DNA of 64,000 nucleotides from Thermococcus sp. 21S7 (lineage in GTDB: Archaea; Methanobacteriota_B; Thermococci; Thermococcales; Thermococcaceae): positions 124,001 through 188,000 of the forward strand of contig NZ_SNUT01000002.1 in NCBI RefSeq assembly GCF_012027615.1. The letters are read 5' to 3'. Positions within the stretch are counted from its first letter, which is position 1. Every line of letters starts with the position of its first letter. Position numbers and translations under genes: made by a program. The notes under the pieces were generated by a model. That model did no database searches and had not been told where the DNA came from. It saw nothing but the letters and a program-made list of their open reading frames with translations. Positions 28,448 through 36,051 of the stretch are shown one piece after another.

Positions 28448-28759
28448 ATGATAGTTGTTAGGGTTGAAGACGCCCCGCGGGTTGACAACCCCCACGGAGT
28501 GGACGTGAGAAAGCTGATGGATGAGAAAAGTGCCCAGATATTTTACATAACCCTGAAGCCGGGGGAGAGCCTGAAGAGACACACAACGCCGGTTGATGCG
28601 TTCATCTATGTCCTTAAGGGCAGGGGCATCGTAGAGGTCGGTGATGAGAGGGCAGAGGTTAAGAAGGGAACCGCCGTATATCTCCCGAAGGAAGTGCCGC
28701 ACGCGGTCTCCAACGGGGGAAGCCTCGACATGACATTCCTCGTTATCAAGGTGATGTAA
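28448..28759 (+). CDS. small cupin-domain protein
   Basis: About 103 residues of a single beta barrel. Cupin motif 1 is degenerate (GESLKRHTTPVDAFIYVLKGRG, one His and no clear Glu), motif 2 is YLPKEVPHAVSNGG with one His, so metal binding is uncertain. Starts one base after the DUF438 stop and abuts the M24 gene, so it is co-transcribed with the regulon. Function unknown; small cupins often bind metabolites or metal. Confidence 0.82.
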   Translation: MIVVRVEDAPRVDNPHGVDVRKLMDEKSAQIFYITLKPGESLKRHTTPVDAFIYVLKGRGIVEVGDERAEVKKGTAVYLPKEVPHAVSNGGSLDMTFLVIKVM

Positions 28760-29836
28760 ATGCGCGGAAATCCTGAAATTTTCAAAAGACGGGTGGAGCG
28801 CTTTCAGGAACTCCTCAGGGAGAACGAGATAGATGGAGCGGTTATCAGAACCCTTTCCAGCTTCATATATTTCACCGGAACCAAGTGGCTCAGGCCGAGC
28901 CTCCTCATCCCGGCGGAGGGCGAACCCGTGGTTTACGTCGTCAAAGGTGAGGCGGAGCTTTTCAGGGAGAAGAGCTGGATTGAAAACGTTGTGGAGTTCC
29001 AAAAGGTAGAGGACCTTATGGCCGGTGTCGTAAGCTGGATCCACAGGAACGGGATGAGCAGGGTCGGCCTTGAGTTTGGCGTTGAGAGGGACGCCTACCT
29101 GATATTCCTCAAGATATTCGAGCGCCTCAACCCCACGATTGAGATAGTTGACGTTCTTGACCTCACAATGAGCCTGAGGATGGTGAAGGATGACTGGGAA
29201 CTGGACAACATCAGGAAGGCAGGGAAGATAGCCGTTAAGGGAATGAAGGTCGCCGAGGAGGTCATAAAGCCCGGACTGAGTGAGCTTGAGATAGCGGCGG
29301 AGGTAGTCAAGGAGCTCATGCTCAACGGAAGCGAGGATCCCAAGGTCTACGTTTCAACTACGCCCAGGGCTCATGCCGAACCGTTCCGCGACCTGAGGGT
29401 TCCGGAGAACGGCGTCGTTACCGTCGTCATCGGGGCGGACTGGAACAGCTATTATGCTAACATGGCCAGAACCTTCATCGTTGGAGAGCCGGGCGAAAGG
29501 GTCAGAAGGGCCATTGAAGTCAAGGAAGAGGCCTACAGGATTGCGCTTGAGGAAACTAAGGTTGGAGTTCCACTGAGCGCCGTCGAGAAGAAGCTCGCGA
29601 ACTTCTTTAAGGAGAAGGGATTCGCCGACGCTTACATAGCCGGCTACACCCACGGTGTCGGCCTTCTCATCGAGGAGCCGCCTATAGCGACGATAGTCGT
29701 CCCCCAGAGGGCCGCAAAGGTTCAGGAAAACATGGTTCTGACGGTTATCCACTCGCCGCTGATGATTCCGGAGGGCGCGATAAAGCACGAAGACACTTAC
29801 ATCGTCAAAAAGGATGGGCTTGAGAGGGTAACCTGA
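28760..29836 (+). CDS. M24 (aminopeptidase P/prolidase) family protein lacking metal ligands
   Basis: About 358 residues: a creatinase-like N-domain (residues 1-130) and a pita-bread M24 domain. The catalytic set of prolidase is two Asp, one His and two Glu. Here the first Asp position reads VIGADWNSYYANMARTF (Val and Asn where Asp should be), the His is kept (THGVGLLIEEPP), the next Glu position is VLTVIHSPLM (His), and only the last, KHEDTYIV, is normal. So it probably is not a normal dimetal peptidase. It starts directly after the cupin stop and ends the regulon transcript. Confidence 0.8.
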   Translation: MRGNPEIFKRRVERFQELLRENEIDGAVIRTLSSFIYFTGTKWLRPSLLIPAEGEPVVYVVKGEAELFREKSWIENVVEFQKVEDLMAGVVSWIHRNGMSRVGLEFGVERDAYLIFLKIFERLNPTIEIVDVLDLTMSLRMVKDDWELDNIRKAGKIAVKGMKVAEEVIKPGLSELEIAAEVVKELMLNGSEDPKVYVSTTPRAHAEPFRDLRVPENGVVTVVIGADWNSYYANMARTFIVGEPGERVRRAIEVKEEAYRIALEETKVGVPLSAVEKKLANFFKEKGFADAYIAGYTHGVGLLIEEPPIATIVVPQRAAKVQENMVLTVIHSPLMIPEGAIKHEDTYIVKKDGLERVT

Positions 29837-29970
29837 GGGGCATTCCCTGTTCATTTTTCTCCCGCAGGTTCCGGCACCGTACACCGGTGTGGCCCAAATT
29901 TTGCAAAGGCACACATTATCCCCCGCTTCTTTATAAACCCCGGTTTTTCTTTTTTGCCTGCCGAGTTTGA

Positions 29971-29984
29971 TTAGGTTGGCCTAA
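29971..29984. promoter_or_regulatory. DtxR-type operator 1 upstream of feo
   Basis: TTAGGTTGGCCTAA, a palindrome with arms TTAGG and CCTAA, 14 bases. It resembles iron-dependent DtxR/MDR1 sites of Thermococcales. A TATA-like CTTTATAAACC lies about 40 bases upstream, behind a T-rich stretch that may end the preceding transcript. Confidence 0.6.
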
Positions 29985-30030
29985 TTATCACCTATTTTAA
30001 CTTCAAAGGTTACTTTTACAAATAGAAAGA

Positions 30031-30047
30031 CTTTTAAGGTGCCCTAA
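30031..30047. promoter_or_regulatory. feo promoter TATA overlapped by DtxR-type operator 2
   Basis: CTTTTAAGG is the likely TATA. The overlapping TTAAGGTGCCCTAA (30034-30047) has nine of ten arm positions of TTAGG-N4-CCTAA. A repressor here would block TBP. Confidence 0.55.
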
Positions 30048-30064
30048 TTCATATTGCCACGTTG

Positions 30065-30078
30065 TTAGGAAAGCCTAA
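30065..30078. promoter_or_regulatory. DtxR-type operator 3 upstream of feoA
   Basis: TTAGGAAAGCCTAA, perfect arms TTAGG and CCTAA, just past the predicted feo transcription start. With the other two copies it makes an iron-responsive promoter likely. Confidence 0.65.
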
Positions 30079-30112
30079 CTACAATCGCCAGCCTTGTACA
30101 GGAGGTGGTTCG

Positions 30113-30340
30113 ATGCGGCTGGACGAAGTTCCCGTCGGTTCGACCGTCAGGGTAAGGAAGCTCTGCGGGGGCCCGATACTGAAGTTCATGGAGATGGGGG
30201 TGCTCCCGGGAACTGAAGTGAGGGTTCTCAAGAAGGCGCCGCTCGGTGACCCGATAGAGGTGGAGCTCCGGGGCTACCGCCTGTCGCTCAGGAAGGAGGA
30301 AGCGGAGTGCCTGGAGGTGGTTCCCTGTGGTTCCCCTTAA
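30113..30340 (+). CDS. feoA: FeoA family protein, first copy
   Basis: About 75 residues with the SH3-like FeoA fold: MRLDEVPVGSTVRVRKLCGGPILKFMEMGVLPGTEVRVLKKAPLGDPIEVELRGYRLSLRKEEAECLEV. The pattern MEMGVLPGTEV is diagnostic. FeoA assists or regulates FeoB in ferrous iron uptake at the cytoplasmic face. The ATG follows GGAGGTGG; 17 upstream codons in the frame are not used. It overlaps the second feoA. Confidence 0.88.
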   Translation: MRLDEVPVGSTVRVRKLCGGPILKFMEMGVLPGTEVRVLKKAPLGDPIEVELRGYRLSLRKEEAECLEVVPCGSP

Positions 30341-30554
30341 CTTTATCGAGCCGGGGAGGCGCGTCAGGCTCGTCAGGGTCTGGGGGAGGGGAATATCCGA
30401 AAGGCTCGCCGAGATGGGCCTCCACCCAGGAAGCGACCTCAGAGTGGTAAGAAACAGCTTCTCCGGCCCCCTCGTTGTCGAGGTCAAGGGCGTTCAGGTG
30501 GCGCTCGGCAGGGGCGTTTCCTCAAGAATCTACGTTGAGGTGATCGGGGAATGA
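30327..30554 (+). CDS. feoA: FeoA family protein, second copy
   Basis: About 75 residues: FIEPGRRVRLVRVWGRGISERLAEMGLHPGSDLRVVRNSFSGPLVVEVKGVQVALGRGVSSRIYVE. Same SH3-like fold with AEMGLHPGSDL. GTG after GGAGGTGG, inside the end of the first copy. It overlaps feoB by ATGA. Two different FeoA proteins may form a mixed complex on FeoB. Confidence 0.88.
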   Translation: MVPLNFIEPGRRVRLVRVWGRGISERLAEMGLHPGSDLRVVRNSFSGPLVVEVKGVQVALGRGVSSRIYVEVIGE

Positions 30555-32545
30555 AGGAAGTCACGATAGCGATAATAGGCAACCCCAACGTCGGAAAAAC
30601 GACAGTCTTCAACGCTCTGACCGGGATGAGGCACAAGGTGGCCAACTGGCCCGGCGTCACGGTGGAGAAGAAGGAGGGCCGCTTCACCCACGGAGGGGTT
30701 GGGTTTCACATCGTTGACCTGCCCGGGGTCTACAGCCTCTCCGCCCGCTCCGTTGACGAAAGGATTGCGAGGAACTTCATACTCGAAGAGAGGCCTTCCC
30801 TGATAATCGACGTTGTGGACGCATCAAACCTCGAAAGAAACCTCTACCTCCTTCTTCAGATCCTTGAGATGGGTGTGCCCGTGGTCGTGGCACTCAACAA
30901 GATGGATTCCGCTGAGGAGAAGGGGCTGAAGATAGACCCCAGAAGGTTGGGGGAGAGGCTCCGCATTCCGGTTGTCCCGCTCGTGGCCACGAGGGGCGAA
31001 GGGGTTGAGGGGCTGAAGGACGCGGTTTTGTCTGCCTGCCGCAGCGGCGCAAAACCAAAACCGCCCACCTACCCGGGTTTTGAGGGGCATGTGAGGCGCC
31101 TGTCGGCGCTCCTCAACGGAAAGGTGGAAAACCCCACGTGGGTCGCGTTAAGGCTCCTTGAGGACGATGATGAAGTCAGGGAAATTGTGAAGGAAAGGGC
31201 GCCGGAGGCGCTCGATGAGTACAGGAAAATTCTGAGGGAAGAGGGTAAAACGGAGGAGGAGCTCCTGCTCGCGCTTGCGGACGCGCGCTACCGGCTCGCG
31301 GCGGAGATTGCAGGGTATGCCATCCTTGAGAGAAGGGAGCGGATGACGGTCTCGGATATGCTCGATGAGGTGTTCCTCCACAGGTGGCTCGGGATACCGG
31401 TCTTCGTCGCCCTTGTGTGGATGGCGTTCAAGTTCGCCTTCGACATAGCCGGGCCCTTTGTGGATGCTGTCGATGCGCTGTTCGCATGGCTCGGGGAGGT
31501 TGCCGGAGAGCACATAGGCAACGAAATGCTCTCCTCGCTCGTGGCCGATGGAATAATAGCCGGCGTTGGGAGCGTCCTCGTTTTCGTCCCCCAGATAGCC
31601 TTCCTGTTCCTTGCCTTCGCGTGGCTTGAGGACTCCGGCTATATGGCGAGGGCCGCTTTTGTGATGGACAGGGTCATGAAGAAGTTCGGGCTTCACGGCA
31701 AGTCCCTGATCCCCCTGCTCCTCGGCTTCAGCTGCAACGTTCCGGCGATAATGGCCACGAGGACCATCGAGGACGAGAAGGACAGAATCCTCACCGTGCT
31801 CGTCAATCCGCTCATGTCCTGCAGCGCCCGTCTGCCGGTCTACGCCCTCTTCGCAGGGGCATTCTTCGCGGGCAGGGAGGGCAGCGTTGTCACCGCGATG
31901 TACTTCCTCGGGATAGCCCTTGCGCTCGTGATGGCCTGGCTCTTCAGGAGGGCCATTTTCGGTGGCGAGCCCTCCTACTTCGTCATGGAACTCCCGCCCT
32001 ACAACCGGCCCAACTGGGGCTTAATTCTCGGGGTGACCTGGGAGAGGACAAAGAAGTTCCTCGCCAAGGCAGGCACGGTAATCTTCGGCACGGTCGTCCT
32101 GATATGGCTCCTGAGCGTTTTCGGGCCCGGCGGCTACATCGGGCCGGGGGCCTTTGAGAGCGGGGAGACGCTCTCGAAGTCATGGGTGGCCTGGATCGGC
32201 CGCGCCCTTGAGCCGCTCTTCAGCCCCCTTGGATGGAACTGGAAGGCCGTGGTCGGCCTCGTCTTCGGACTCCTTGCCAAGGAGGTGGTCGTGGGAACCC
32301 TTGGCATCCTCCACGGGGTCGGCGAGGAGGGCCTCGGGGAGGTGCTTGCCGCGAGCGGTGACTTCACTCCCGTTTCGGCCTTCGCGTACATGGCCTTCGT
32401 TTTGATTTACGTGCCCTGCATAGCCACCATTGGAGCAATAAAGGGCGAGATAGGCGGCAAATGGGCGGCCTTTGCGGTGGCCTACGGGATAGTGCTGGCC
32501 TACGCAGTTGCCCTTCTTATAGTTGCAGGGGGTGCTCTGATATGA
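30551..32545 (+). CDS. feoB: ferrous iron transport protein B
   Basis: About 664 residues. N-terminal GTPase: G1 GNPNVGKTT, G3 DLPGVYSL, G4 ALNKMD, followed by a helical GDI-like region. From about residue 270 come the membrane helices with the Gate motifs, including SCNVPAIMATRTI and LMSCSARLPVYALFAGAFF; the cysteines in these are candidates for Fe(II) relay. It moves Fe2+ inward. It lies between two feoA genes and a small membrane protein gene, all overlapping by four bases. Confidence 0.96.
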   Translation: MKEVTIAIIGNPNVGKTTVFNALTGMRHKVANWPGVTVEKKEGRFTHGGVGFHIVDLPGVYSLSARSVDERIARNFILEERPSLIIDVVDASNLERNLYLLLQILEMGVPVVVALNKMDSAEEKGLKIDPRRLGERLRIPVVPLVATRGEGVEGLKDAVLSACRSGAKPKPPTYPGFEGHVRRLSALLNGKVENPTWVALRLLEDDDEVREIVKERAPEALDEYRKILREEGKTEEELLLALADARYRLAAEIAGYAILERRERMTVSDMLDEVFLHRWLGIPVFVALVWMAFKFAFDIAGPFVDAVDALFAWLGEVAGEHIGNEMLSSLVADGIIAGVGSVLVFVPQIAFLFLAFAWLEDSGYMARAAFVMDRVMKKFGLHGKSLIPLLLGFSCNVPAIMATRTIEDEKDRILTVLVNPLMSCSARLPVYALFAGAFFAGREGSVVTAMYFLGIALALVMAWLFRRAIFGGEPSYFVMELPPYNRPNWGLILGVTWERTKKFLAKAGTVIFGTVVLIWLLSVFGPGGYIGPGAFESGETLSKSWVAWIGRALEPLFSPLGWNWKAVVGLVFGLLAKEVVVGTLGILHGVGEEGLGEVLAASGDFTPVSAFAYMAFVLIYVPCIATIGAIKGEIGGKWAAFAVAYGIVLAYAVALLIVAGGALI

Positions 32546-32955
32546 ACACGAAGAACACCGGAATAACGTGTGCCGTACTTGGCACCACATTCCTGCTCGC
32601 GGGGTTTGCTGAGATGCTGGCCTTCGCAGGGGCTGTTACTTCAGAGGCGCCCGCCCTCAGCGGGGACTTTTTCACCGGCTTTGTCCTGCTGACGATAGGA
32701 GCCGTCTTTCTGACCGGTGTCCCAAAGGCCCGGAAGGGGGAGAGCAGGAGCGTTGCCTACCTCTACTCCGGCCTGCTCCTCGGCCTCGGTCTCCTCGCGG
32801 TGGGTGCCTTTTACACCCTCGCCGATTTCGTCGGCACCGCCGTGGTTGAGGGCCAGCCATGGAGCCCCCGTGTGCCGCTCTACCTGCTGCTCGGCGTTGT
32901 CTCGGGCCTAATCTACATCCCCGTTAGAAAGGGGGTGAGGGAATGGACTGGATAA
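32542..32955 (+). CDS. small membrane protein in feo operon
   Basis: About 137 residues, four membrane helices (ITCAVLGTTFLLAGFAEMLAF, FFTGFVLLTIGAVFLTGV, AYLYSGLLLGLGLLAVGAFYTLADFV, VPLYLLLGVVSGLIYIPV). ATG overlaps the feoB stop; its end overlaps the radical SAM gene by 13 bases. No motif identifies it. A FeoC-like or accessory subunit is possible, but FeoC proteins are normally small winged helices, so this is something else. Confidence 0.68.
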   Translation: MNTKNTGITCAVLGTTFLLAGFAEMLAFAGAVTSEAPALSGDFFTGFVLLTIGAVFLTGVPKARKGESRSVAYLYSGLLLGLGLLAVGAFYTLADFVGTAVVEGQPWSPRVPLYLLLGVVSGLIYIPVRKGVREWTG

Positions 32956-34133
32956 AGACCCACCACAGGGCCCTCTCCCCCCTGCGGCCCTTTTTCAGGG
33001 ACGTGGACGTCTCGGTTCCCAGGCTCTACCGGAACAGGAAGGGGTTCCTCTACGTCCACGTCCCGTTCTGCACCGGCAACTGCACGTTCTGCATCCTCTA
33101 CCGGGAGAGGCCAACGGTACCCTATGAGAGGTACGTGAACGCCCTCCTCAGGGAGCTCCGGAACTGTCACTCCTTCAAACCTGTGGTGGTGTACTTCGGC
33201 GGGGGTACACCGACCCTCCTTCCCGCGGAGGGGTTCGGGGAGATACTCGACGAAGTCACCTCCAGGACATCGCCGGGAGAAGTCACCGTGGAGAGCACCG
33301 TGTCCGAGTTTGACGAGGAGAAGGCCAGGGCCCTCTCGGAGCTTGGGGTGAACAGGATAAGCTTTGGCATCCAGACGTTTGAGGGGCGGAAAAGGGCACT
33401 CCTCGGCAGACGTTCCGGGGCGGAGGAGGCCTTTAAAAAGCTCAAACTCGCGATGGAGTACTTTGACGTTGTATCGGTAGACCTCCTCTACGACCTCCCC
33501 TTCGGAAATACCCTCTTAGAGGACGTTGAGACAGTTATAAAGCTCGATATCGACGGGCTCTCGATATACCCCCTTGAGCACACGCCACTGACGGCCAAAT
33601 ACCCCCACCCCTCCGTGGAGGAGAACCTGAGGGACTTTCTGTCCGCGGTAACGTTCCTGTACGAGCACGGCTACCGGCACCTCTCGATGAACCACTTCAC
33701 GAACGGGAGGGACGGTTTCCTCTACTCTGTAACGTTCACGAGGCCTGAGGTGCCCCTCCTCGGTATCGGGCCCGGAGCGGGAGGTCACGTAATGGGGCAC
33801 CGCATCTTTCATTCTCCGGGAGTGGGGAGGTACCTCTCGAATCCCTACTCGGTGAAGGCGGTTCTTTCCGGGGCTTTCGACTTTGAGCGGTTTGCATCGC
33901 GGCTTTTCGAGGGGAGGCTTACCTTTGATACCTTCAGGCTGGAGGACTTCCCCTCGCTGGCCATCGCGGAGGAAAGGGGATGGGTCGAGGTAAGGGGCAA
34001 AACCGCCCTTTTAACGCCCCTCGGCCTCTTCTGGGCGAACACCCTCGCCTATCTGATGTGCCTCGACTACGTCCGTACGAGGCTCGAAGCGGCGCTCGGA
34101 GAAGCTGAAGTCGGGGGTGAAGCGGCCCCCTAA
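32943..34133 (+). CDS. HemW/ChuW-like radical SAM protein in iron operon
   Basis: About 396 residues. Radical SAM cluster CTGNCTFC (CxxxCxxC, about residue 43), preceded by YVHVPFC as in the HemN/HemW/ChuW group; later VYFGGGTPTLL, VNRISFGIQTF, DLLYDLPFG and GIGPGAGGHVMG. HemN-type enzymes act on porphyrinogens, ChuW opens heme anaerobically to free iron, and HemW carries heme. Thermococcales are not known to make heme, and the gene sits in the feo operon, so release of iron from heme-like sources is an attractive idea (inference). It converges on lrp with four bases of overlap. Confidence 0.85.
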   Translation: MDWIKTHHRALSPLRPFFRDVDVSVPRLYRNRKGFLYVHVPFCTGNCTFCILYRERPTVPYERYVNALLRELRNCHSFKPVVVYFGGGTPTLLPAEGFGEILDEVTSRTSPGEVTVESTVSEFDEEKARALSELGVNRISFGIQTFEGRKRALLGRRSGAEEAFKKLKLAMEYFDVVSVDLLYDLPFGNTLLEDVETVIKLDIDGLSIYPLEHTPLTAKYPHPSVEENLRDFLSAVTFLYEHGYRHLSMNHFTNGRDGFLYSVTFTRPEVPLLGIGPGAGGHVMGHRIFHSPGVGRYLSNPYSVKAVLSGAFDFERFASRLFEGRLTFDTFRLEDFPSLAIAEERGWVEVRGKTALLTPLGLFWANTLAYLMCLDYVRTRLEAALGEAEVGGEAAP

Positions 34134-34591
34134 AACACCCTCGCGTAGCCCCACTTCCGGACGCTCGTGAGGATTGAGGTTTCGGTGCTCCTCAGCCCCT
34201 CTATTTTTCCGAGCTTTTCTATGAGGAAGCTCTCAAGCTCCTGGAGGTCCTTAACGGTCACCTGCATGAGTATATCGTGCGCCCCGGTCGCTATACCGAG
34301 AACGTCCACCTCGGGAAGTTTGCTCAGCTCCTCGGCGGCCTTTTTCACCCTGCTCGGCTCGACATCAACGGCTATGAAAGCGACTATTGAATAGCCGGCC
34401 TTGAAGGGGTTTATCAGCGCCGAGAACTTCCTGATGACGCCCCTCTCGACGAGCTTCTTCACGCGCAGCCTGACCGTCGATTCCGGCACCTTGAGGCGTC
34501 TCGCTATCTCGGAGTAGCTGGCCCGCCCGTCCTCCTGAAGGATGTGGAGTATCATCCTGTCAAGTTCGTCAAGGTGCTCATTAGTTCGCAT
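34130..34591 (-). CDS. Lrp/AsnC family transcriptional regulator
   Basis: About 153 residues. N-terminal HTH: LDELDRMILHILQEDGRASYSEIARRLKVPESTVRLRVKKLVERGVI. C-terminal RAM/ACT-like domain from about residue 65: AGYSIVAFIAVDVEPSRVKKAAEELSKLPEVDVLGIATGAHDILMQV. It binds DNA as a dimer or octamer in response to amino acids. The start follows GGGGTGAAAA; the longer open frame starts without signals. It faces the class III aminotransferase gene, its likely target. Confidence 0.88.
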   Translation of the reverse strand: MRTNEHLDELDRMILHILQEDGRASYSEIARRLKVPESTVRLRVKKLVERGVIRKFSALINPFKAGYSIVAFIAVDVEPSRVKKAAEELSKLPEVDVLGIATGAHDILMQVTVKDLQELESFLIEKLGKIEGLRSTETSILTSVRKWGYARVF

Positions 34592-34599
34592 TTTTTCAC

Positions 34600-34661
34600 C
34601 CCAATTTTTGTCAGTATTTTGCACTACTTTTAATTTTTCTGCGAAATCAGCAAAATTTGGG
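34600..34661. promoter_or_regulatory. divergent lrp/aminotransferase control region with inverted repeat
   Basis: CCCAATTTTTG (34600-34610) and CAAAATTTGGG (34651-34661) are inverted copies with one mismatch, 40 bases apart. GCGAAATC occurs twice (near 34641 and 34661). The minus-strand TATA for lrp (AAATTAAAAG) lies between the arms. Spacing of about four helical turns is common for Lrp-type octamer binding. Confidence 0.42.
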
Positions 34662-34707: not shown

Positions 34708-36051
34708 ATGGGGTATCCCAAGAACAGGGAGGAAGTCCTGGAGCGCTATTCACGGGTTTTCCCGAGGTCAGCGCGCGTCACCTACGCGCCGATAGTGGGG
34801 GTCAAAGCCCGGAACGCCCTCGTCTGGGACATCGAGGGCAGGGAGTACATAGACTTCCTGAGCGATGCGGCAGTCCAGAACGTCGGCCACAACAACCCCC
34901 GGGTTGTAGACGCAATAAGGGAGCAGGCGGAGAGGCTGATACACTTCACCTTTATCTACGGCTTCCCGGTTGAGCCGCTCCTCCTGGCTGAAAAGCTCGC
35001 CGAGATAGCGCCGATTGAAAATCCAAAGGTCAGCTTCGGAATGACTGGGAGCGACGCCAATGATGGGGCAATAAAACTCGCGAGGGCCTATACACGGAGG
35101 AGGACGATACTCAGCTACCTCAGGAGCTACTACGGGGCGACCTACGGCGCGATGAGCATAACAGGCCTTGACTTCGAGGTTCGCTCCATAGTGGGGGAGC
35201 TGAGCGGTATTCATTACCTCCCATACCCCAACTGCTACCGCTGTCCCTTCGGGAAGGATCCGAAGACCTGCAAAATGGAGTGTGTCTCATACATCAGGGA
35301 GAAGTTCGAGGGGGAGGTCTACGCCGAGGGAACCGCCGCACTCTTCGCCGAACCGATACAGGGCGATGCCGGGATGGTCGTTCCGCCGGAGGGCTACTTC
35401 AAAAAGGTGAAGAGAATCCTCGATGAACACGGCATCCTCCTGGCTGTGGACGAGGTTCAGAGCGGCATGGGAAGAACCGGAAGGTGGTTCGCGATAGAGC
35501 ACTTCGGGGTTGAACCGGACATAATAACCCTCGCGAAGCCCCTCGGGGGAGGACTGCCGATAAGCGCGATAATAGGGCGCTCCGAGGTCATGGAATCCCT
35601 TCCCCCGCTCGGCCACACCTTCACCCTCAGCGGCAATCCCGTGACGAGCAGAGCTGCTTTGGCGGTTATCGAGGAGATAGAGGAGAAGGACCTGCTCAGG
35701 AGGGCGGAGAAGCTCGGAAAACACACAAAAAGACGGCTCGAAAAGATGAAGGAGGAGCACGAGCTCATCGGCGACGTCCGCGGTTTAGGCCTGATGCTCG
35801 GCGTTGACCTTGTGAAGGACAGGGAGACGAAGGAGAGGGCCTATGAAGAGGCCAGAAAGGTCGTCTGGCGTGCCTACGAGCTGGGTCTAGTCCTTGCGTT
35901 CCTCCAGGGCAACGTGCTGAGGATTCAGCCTCCCCTCACGATAGAGGAGGACCTCCTTGATGAGGGTCTCGACAGGCTGGAACGGGCCATAGCCGACGTG
36001 GAGAACGGTAATGTCCCCGACGAGGTTCTGACGAAGGTTCAGGGCTGGTGA
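34708..36051 (+). CDS. class III aminotransferase / amino acid racemase-like PLP enzyme
   Basis: About 447 residues of a fold-type I PLP enzyme. Motifs: [28 protein letters not shown] (phosphate loop), [18 protein letters not shown] (PLP ring Asp) and [16 protein letters not shown], with the Lys in TLAKPLGGG that forms the Schiff base. The sequence, including [12 protein letters not shown], is close to what I remember of the broad-substrate amino-acid racemase and related omega-aminotransferases of Thermococcales; which reaction it performs is not decidable here. ATG after GGTGAGAGC. TATA CATATAAC lies about 20 bases upstream of the start. Divergent to lrp. Confidence 0.85.

Follow-up and report, generated by a model that had tools for sequence, protein, structure and literature searches.

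A ferrous iron uptake operon of Thermococcus with a ChuW/HutW/HmuW-type radical SAM gene: a candidate route for oxygen-free heme opening in archaea

Results

The 64,000-nucleotide stretch of Thermococcus sp. 21S7 DNA analysed here (the window; contig NZ_SNUT01000002.1, positions 124,001 to 188,000) carries a ferrous iron uptake (feo) operon in which feoB is followed by the genes of a small membrane protein and a radical S-adenosylmethionine (SAM) enzyme. The five genes lie on the + strand, are uninterrupted from start to stop and overlap successively by 14, 4, 4 and 13 bases. The first two, feoA1 (30113..30340) and feoA2 (30327..30554, GTG start), each code for 75 residues with a FeoA domain (PF04023, 75.6 and 70 bits), while feoB (30551..32545) codes for 664 residues with FeoB_N, Gate and FeoB_C domains and was matched to the NCBIfam family TIGR00437 at 684 bits against a cut-off of 316; the two marks of a Feo system, a FeoA domain and a full FeoB, were both found. 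The fourth gene (32542..32955) encodes a membrane protein of 137 residues with about four hydrophobic segments, for which Pfam and NCBIfam gave no family above cut-off. The fifth (32943..34133) encodes a predicted radical SAM enzyme of the ChuW/HutW/HmuW clade, 396 residues long, whose core (PF04055, 78 bits against 29.5) has the CxxxCxxC motif at residues 43-50 (C43, C47 and C50). Above the Pfam cut-offs the operon gave FeoA in both copies, the FeoB domains and Radical_SAM. The first-pass annotation, made from the letters of the window, had described the order feoA-feoA-feoB-membrane protein-radical SAM with overlaps of 4 to 14 bases, which coordinates, Pfam and NCBIfam bear out, and a CTGNCTFC motif in the last protein, which is indeed present.

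The radical SAM enzyme was found in four of the 94 genomes of the order and four of the 115 of the phylum, namely the window genome (G000), its closest relative G018 (enzyme 99% identical), G023 (62%) and G093 (55%). In all four the gene is preceded by feoB and the same small membrane protein, which itself occurs in 13 of the 94 genomes and directly follows feoB in every one of the 13, nine of them being without the radical SAM enzyme. Because the feoB-membrane protein pair recurs in this way and the triplet with the radical SAM gene is seen in four of four genomes, the arrangement is not a product of chance. Linkage to feo in other genomes, on which the first-pass annotation had staked its proposal, was thereby observed wherever the enzyme occurs.

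The same annotation had the operon end in the radical SAM gene, which holds for the window but not for the full operon. In G018 the order is feoA-feoA-feoB-membrane protein-radical SAM-binding protein-FecCD-FecE-FeoC-like, the two feoA genes being deduced from the alignment with the window (94.6%), and in G023 it is feoA-feoB-membrane protein-radical SAM-binding protein-FecCD-flavodoxin-FecE-FeoC-like. In G093 two feoA-like reading frames (read from the DNA), feoB, the membrane protein and the radical SAM gene were found with no adjoining importer. Thus the gene stands beside an ATP-binding cassette (ABC) importer, of predicted cargo and with subunits below curated cut-offs, in G018 and G023 and not in the window or G093. 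The last protein of the complete operons combines a winged helix with a C..CPL...C cluster; it misses the Pfam FeoC family (PF09012) and gave weak winged-helix matches only, so that "FeoC-like" is a label taken from its size, winged helix and cysteine cluster. The flavodoxin gene of G023 (L031 8664-9208) is split across two frames, by decay or by a sequencing error.

Relatives of the importer were used to judge its cargo. Strong relatives of the G018 binding protein (above 320 bits) occur in 18 of the 94 genomes of the order, the next match being at 183 bits; these are G018 and G023, both with the radical SAM enzyme, and 16 others, with cydA. In all of the 16 a TIGR04053-type radical SAM gene stands ahead of two binding protein genes (1 and 2) and FecCD in the stretch read, and cydA and cydB precede this cluster in 14, the contig ending there in the remaining two. 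Read from the other side, cydA was found in 18 of the 94 genomes, 16 of which have the importer (the exceptions are G019 and G057), and was absent from all four genomes with the radical SAM enzyme; the Fisher tests applied to such counts take no account of genome relatedness. The radical SAM protein of one such cluster, L178, scores 522 bits on TIGR04053 against a cut-off of 395, with the heme b synthase AhbD next at 306. Compared with the G018 and G023 importers, the binding protein of the 16-genome cluster is 45-52%, the permease 61-63% and the ATPase 59-62% identical; the cluster differs in having cytochrome bd and a second binding protein, and no ChuW-like enzyme or feoB in the stretches read. 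The cyd cluster is likely a self-contained heme-supply and quinol oxidase island. The wider layout cydA-cydB-TIGR04053-two binding proteins-FecCD-Flavodoxin_5-FecE-UbiD-UbiA was seen at L178 3171-13602 and in L242-L256. The flavodoxin of one genome, G022, gave no match at E 0.01 in a PDB sequence search.

The best NCBIfam match of the binding protein is the heme-binding IsdE (63 bits), and that of the ATPase is the heme ATPase PRK13548 (209.7 bits), both below cut-off; among PDB matches of the binding protein IsdE came second, in the company of several siderophore binders. Cytochrome bd has been described in T. gammatolerans and T. sp. AM4 (PMC3512248), and table lines of PMC3004389 give no hem genes for T. 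gammatolerans or the other Thermococcus and Pyrococcus listed there. A heme oxidase in organisms without heme synthesis calls for uptake of heme or a precursor, for which the importer is the obvious candidate, and the same importer type in a feo operon of genomes without cydA fits heme as an iron source. Taken together, context and kinship point to heme as the probable cargo. Import of cobalamin, in line with BtuC as the permease's best match, is weighed lower, since no more than 18 of 94 genomes have the importer, and its occurrence goes with that of cydA or the radical SAM enzyme.

The position of the enzyme was studied in two trees, one of 61 rows selected from 118 open frames and 12 references, and one of 43 rows selected from these and six new ones. 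The 43-row tree held four archaeal, four HmuW-like (L215, L216, L212 and Cetobacterium L157), eight ChuW/HutW, 15 HemW and four HemN rows, among others. The archaeal, HmuW-like and ChuW/HutW rows formed one 16-row clade (support 97/94), and HemW (99/96) and HemN (100/100) formed separate ones; the 61-row tree concurs, with the enzyme in the ChuW/HutW clade (11 rows, 99/94). In the approximately unbiased (AU) test, a clade of the four archaeal proteins with HemW was rejected (p-AU 0.0198), as was one with Paenibacillus class C-like rows (p-AU 0.0129). Two motifs, defined here from the alignment, follow the same division. The [AG]GG motif is present in all 16 clade rows (four archaeal, four HmuW-like and eight ChuW/HutW) and in none of the other 27 (15 HemW, four HemN, four archaeal rows outside the clade and four others), while GxFW is present in 15 of the 16 (4/4, 4/4 and 7/8) and in one of the 27, belonging to the last group of four. 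An N-terminal HH was found in all eight archaeal and HmuW-like rows, was absent at the aligned place from all eight ChuW/HutW rows, and was present in the non-clade archaeal L173. Six other archaeal homologues found among 298 genomes lie outside the clade (five and L176 in the 61-row tree, four in the 43-row tree).

These results suggest that the enzyme represents a new, deeply placed branch within the ChuW/HutW/HmuW clade and not a curated ChuW/HutW member. The earlier label "HemW/ChuW-like" therefore keeps its ChuW half, to which HmuW-like is added, and loses the HemW half, given the AU result and the lack of a HemN_C match; within the HemN/HemW/ChuW phylogeny, which the first-pass annotation had proposed as a check, the enzyme was found in no clade of unrelated function. 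As a possible donor the Desulfurobacteriaceae were considered and rejected: closest at 37% among the best 80 matches, their protein is a HemW instead (L034, TIGR00539 237 bits, and the tree), and the genome contig scan made for a donor gave mainly HemW proteins among its best 80 matches.

In NCBIfam the enzyme's best match was ChuW/HutW TIGR04107 (180.4 bits), followed by STM4012 (137), HemW TIGR00539 (120, cut-off 205.4) and HemN TIGR00538 (101, cut-off 325), and no curated full-length family was reached. Among clade members L215 (270), L212 (233), L157 (216) and L216 (212) also lie below the TIGR04107 cut-off of 400, which L213 (461) passes. The HemN_C domain was found in E. coli HemW and HemN and not detected in ChuW, L215 or the window enzyme, which is 25-28% identical to ChuW/HutW. 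Its fold was predicted with a pLDDT of 86.9 and a pTM of 0.85.

Outside the archaea, the clade member L215 has the order radical SAM-binding protein-permease-ATPase-FeoB. As its FeoB shares just 29% identity with the archaeal one, the linkage of enzyme, importer and FeoB arose or was maintained outside archaea too. The operon itself lies at L215 930-7760 in a bacterial genome of 1.8 Mb, and its ChuW-like enzyme is 38% identical to that of the window over 234 residues. A second operon of this kind was not found in the search around G665, in which the threshold was reached by 14 of 290 genomes; next to G665 itself the best were G660 and G823, already known. In L216 the order is permease-ATPase-binding protein-radical SAM, and in L210 and L213 ChuX-, ChuU- and ChuV-like genes were found together with TonB-type receptor matches; near L212 and L157 no such genes were seen.

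The window was compared with G018 to follow the fate of the importer. Window positions 28750-34126 align to L030 2035-7410 of G018 at 94.6% DNA identity; the next 2,968 bases (L030 7411-10378), which hold the substrate-binding protein, FecCD permease, FecE ATPase and FeoC-like gene, have no counterpart in the window, where the alignment picks up again at 34129. The junction at 34126..34129, a feature of no strand, thus marks the site of these four genes. Loss in the window lineage is the simpler reading, because the far more distant G023 has the importer at the same place. Between window and G018 the radical SAM gene shows a rate of nonsynonymous change (dN) of 0.0022 and of synonymous change (dS) of 0.047, against 0.022 and 0.065 for FeoB, so that the enzyme has been constrained over this divergence; the deletion itself is not dated thereby. 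The window genome keeps a conserved enzyme, and either the substrate must reach this enzyme in some other way or the enzyme is being lost.

Two palindromic boxes precede the operon on the + strand, TTAGGTTGGCCTAA at 29971..29984 and TTAGGAAAGCCTAA at 30065..30078, respectively 142 and 48 bases upstream of the feoA1 start. Both are exact TTAGGNNNNCCTAA boxes, a form which we take to be the DtxR/IdeR-type operator motif. Boxes lie upstream of feoA in all four enzyme-bearing operons, two exact ones each in G000, G018 (L030) and G023 (L031), those of L030 and L031 being at places matching the window boxes, and one exact with two of a single mismatch in G093 (L032). The whole genome holds 11 exact sites against four for the reversed control. 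Within the window the count at up to one mismatch is not above that of shuffles (3 against a mean of 1.89, with 31 of 100 shuffles reaching 3), and support for the boxes comes from their position, their conservation in four operons and the genome count, not from window frequency. In T. kodakarensis, the DtxR homologue TK0107 may regulate iron genes, and both Feo operons were upregulated in the study concerned (PMC12827226). Elsewhere in the window genome, a second FecBCD-type importer, whose binding protein has an extra N-terminal part, lies at G000:C7:36321-37247 (L179 3286-4920), with a box about 3 kb away at C7:40113, and may share an iron regulon. A further exact box occurs some 1.3 kb past a radical SAM domain (G000:C4:57988 and C4:56174; L023).

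Discussion

We propose, with a probability of roughly 0.6, that this is an iron-repressed operon whose complete form imports heme and opens it without oxygen, releasing Fe2+; heme binding and ring opening are assigned by kinship and gene context. The suggestion of the first-pass annotation that iron may be gained from tetrapyrroles is thereby strengthened, as the clade, the feoB link in four of four genomes and an importer with cyd-linked relatives all favour it. Under iron shortage, a DtxR-type repressor would leave the two boxes upstream of feoA, and FeoA and FeoB would bring in free Fe2+. In G018 and G023, the FecB/FecCD/FecE-type importer would take in heme or a similar iron tetrapyrrole. 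In the anaerobic reaction as described for the bacterial enzymes, a second SAM is turned into a methylene radical by a 5'-deoxyadenosyl radical; the methylene radical adds to a meso carbon, whereupon the ring opens and iron leaves (PMC10035031, PMC10404700). By analogy with ChuW, HutW and HmuW, the archaeal enzyme may use two SAM to methylate and break a meso bridge, freeing Fe2+ inside the cell. Electrons are supplied by flavodoxin to ChuW and HmuW and by NADPH to HutW (PMC10035031, PMC10404700); here the Flavodoxin_5-type protein might give electrons or reduce the opened product. With FeoB, for external Fe2+, on the same transcript, the simplest view would be of two iron routes under one iron switch.

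Like hmuTRUVWF of Fusobacterium nucleatum, in which HmuW is an anaerobilin synthase and HmuF a flavodoxin (PMC10404700), the complete archaeal operon combines a class C-type radical SAM enzyme with an HmuT/U/V-type importer and, in G023, a flavodoxin-family gene, in an anaerobe. It differs in that no TonB-type receptor gene was found in the archaeal stretches read, the genes form part of a feo operon, the enzyme branches deeply on its own, the host is a presumably hyperthermophilic archaeon and the window copy is without the importer. With the ChuW/HutW systems described for E. coli (chu) and Vibrio (hut) in PMC10035031 it shares the clade, both motifs and, for ChuW, the lack of a detected HemN_C, whereas sequence identity is low, the profile score is less than half the cut-off and no ChuX/ChuY relative was seen in the archaeal operons. 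Compared with FeoABC operons, the feoA, feoA and feoB genes are shared, as is the FeoC-like gene that closes the operon of G018 and G023, but the membrane protein, radical SAM enzyme and ABC importer stand between feoB and the FeoC-like gene.

Several observations weigh against the heme-opening proposal. The window enzyme lies well below the curated TIGR04107 cut-off, and HemW proteins score alike on that family (164-213 bits), for which reason the score was dropped as proof of ChuW/HutW identity. The long stem of the archaeal proteins leaves the exact position of the enzyme unsure. No importer counterpart was found in the window genome, the best match anywhere being 28% identical, and binding-protein matches in G093 are all at or below 180 bits. 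All importer subunits miss their curated cut-offs, BtuC being the best curated match of the permease; flavodoxin occurs among feo operons in G023 only, in a broken frame; and no heme importer was found in the nearby stretch of the Cetobacterium (L157) and L212 homologues. Furthermore, hot vents are not a setting in which free heme would readily be expected to serve as a source of iron.

Some of these points would suit a class C radical SAM methylase that acts, with no heme opening, on another iron-linked small molecule imported by FecBCD, such as a metallophore, a cobamide or a different tetrapyrrole. Class C methylases lie next to the clade, the enzyme matches NocN in the PDB better than HemN (75.8 against 68.1 bits), the BtuC and siderophore-binder matches of the importer agree with such a cargo, and the importer occurs without the enzyme in 16 genomes. 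Those 16 importers, however, all belong to a cytochrome bd cluster, or to one severed by a contig end, and that cluster, with its TIGR04053 protein of the AhbD/NirJ group, leads back to heme; the grouping with Paenibacillus class C-like rows was rejected; we regard such a methylase as unlikely. A HemW-type heme chaperone, or a heme handler without ring opening, is still less probable. HemW proteins are the most numerous among the closest pairwise matches listed, and hhalign profile comparison gave no separation (ChuW/HutW 392, HemW 411 with 12 rows), yet the enzyme falls short of TIGR00539, has no detected HemN_C, is kept apart from the HemW clade by tree and AU test, and carries the two motifs missing from all 15 HemW rows. 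As for a HemN-like decarboxylase of porphyrinogens or coproheme, HemN (1olt) is the best structural match of the predicted model (TM 0.75) and a clade of the archaeal proteins with HemN was not rejected (p-AU 0.134), which also counts against our placement. The fold match does not discriminate, because the PDB sequence search returned no ChuW, HutW or HemW structure, and the TIGR00538 score, an hhalign score of 231 against 379-392 for the W groups, the undetected HemN_C and the lack of both motifs from all four HemN rows make this identity highly improbable.

In the cited literature anaerobic heme opening belongs to bacteria, mostly host-associated, and no paper on heme degradation in Thermococcales was found among titles and abstract openings of the open-access literature; this appears to be the first archaeal case found of an operon of the anaerobic heme-opening type. 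It seems slightly better than an even chance that certain hyperthermophilic archaea that make no heme take it up and cleave it for iron without oxygen, by a third deep anaerobilin-synthase branch set in a feo operon, while the sister importer of their relatives feeds cytochrome bd, and that the window lineage lost the importer and kept the enzyme. If so, an archaeal version in a ferrous iron operon would extend anaerobic heme opening to a free-living, probably hyperthermophilic group. Structural studies would gain a heat-stable enzyme, and one would suspect that heme is passed around at vents and serves there as a source of iron. The 16 genomes in which this type of importer adjoins cytochrome bd likewise provide a testable answer to how a heme oxidase could be supplied without heme synthesis.

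Downstream of the operon, the window carries an Lrp/AsnC-type regulator gene (34130-34624), convergent with the radical SAM gene and overlapping its end by four bases, which is followed by an aminotransferase-like gene at 34708.
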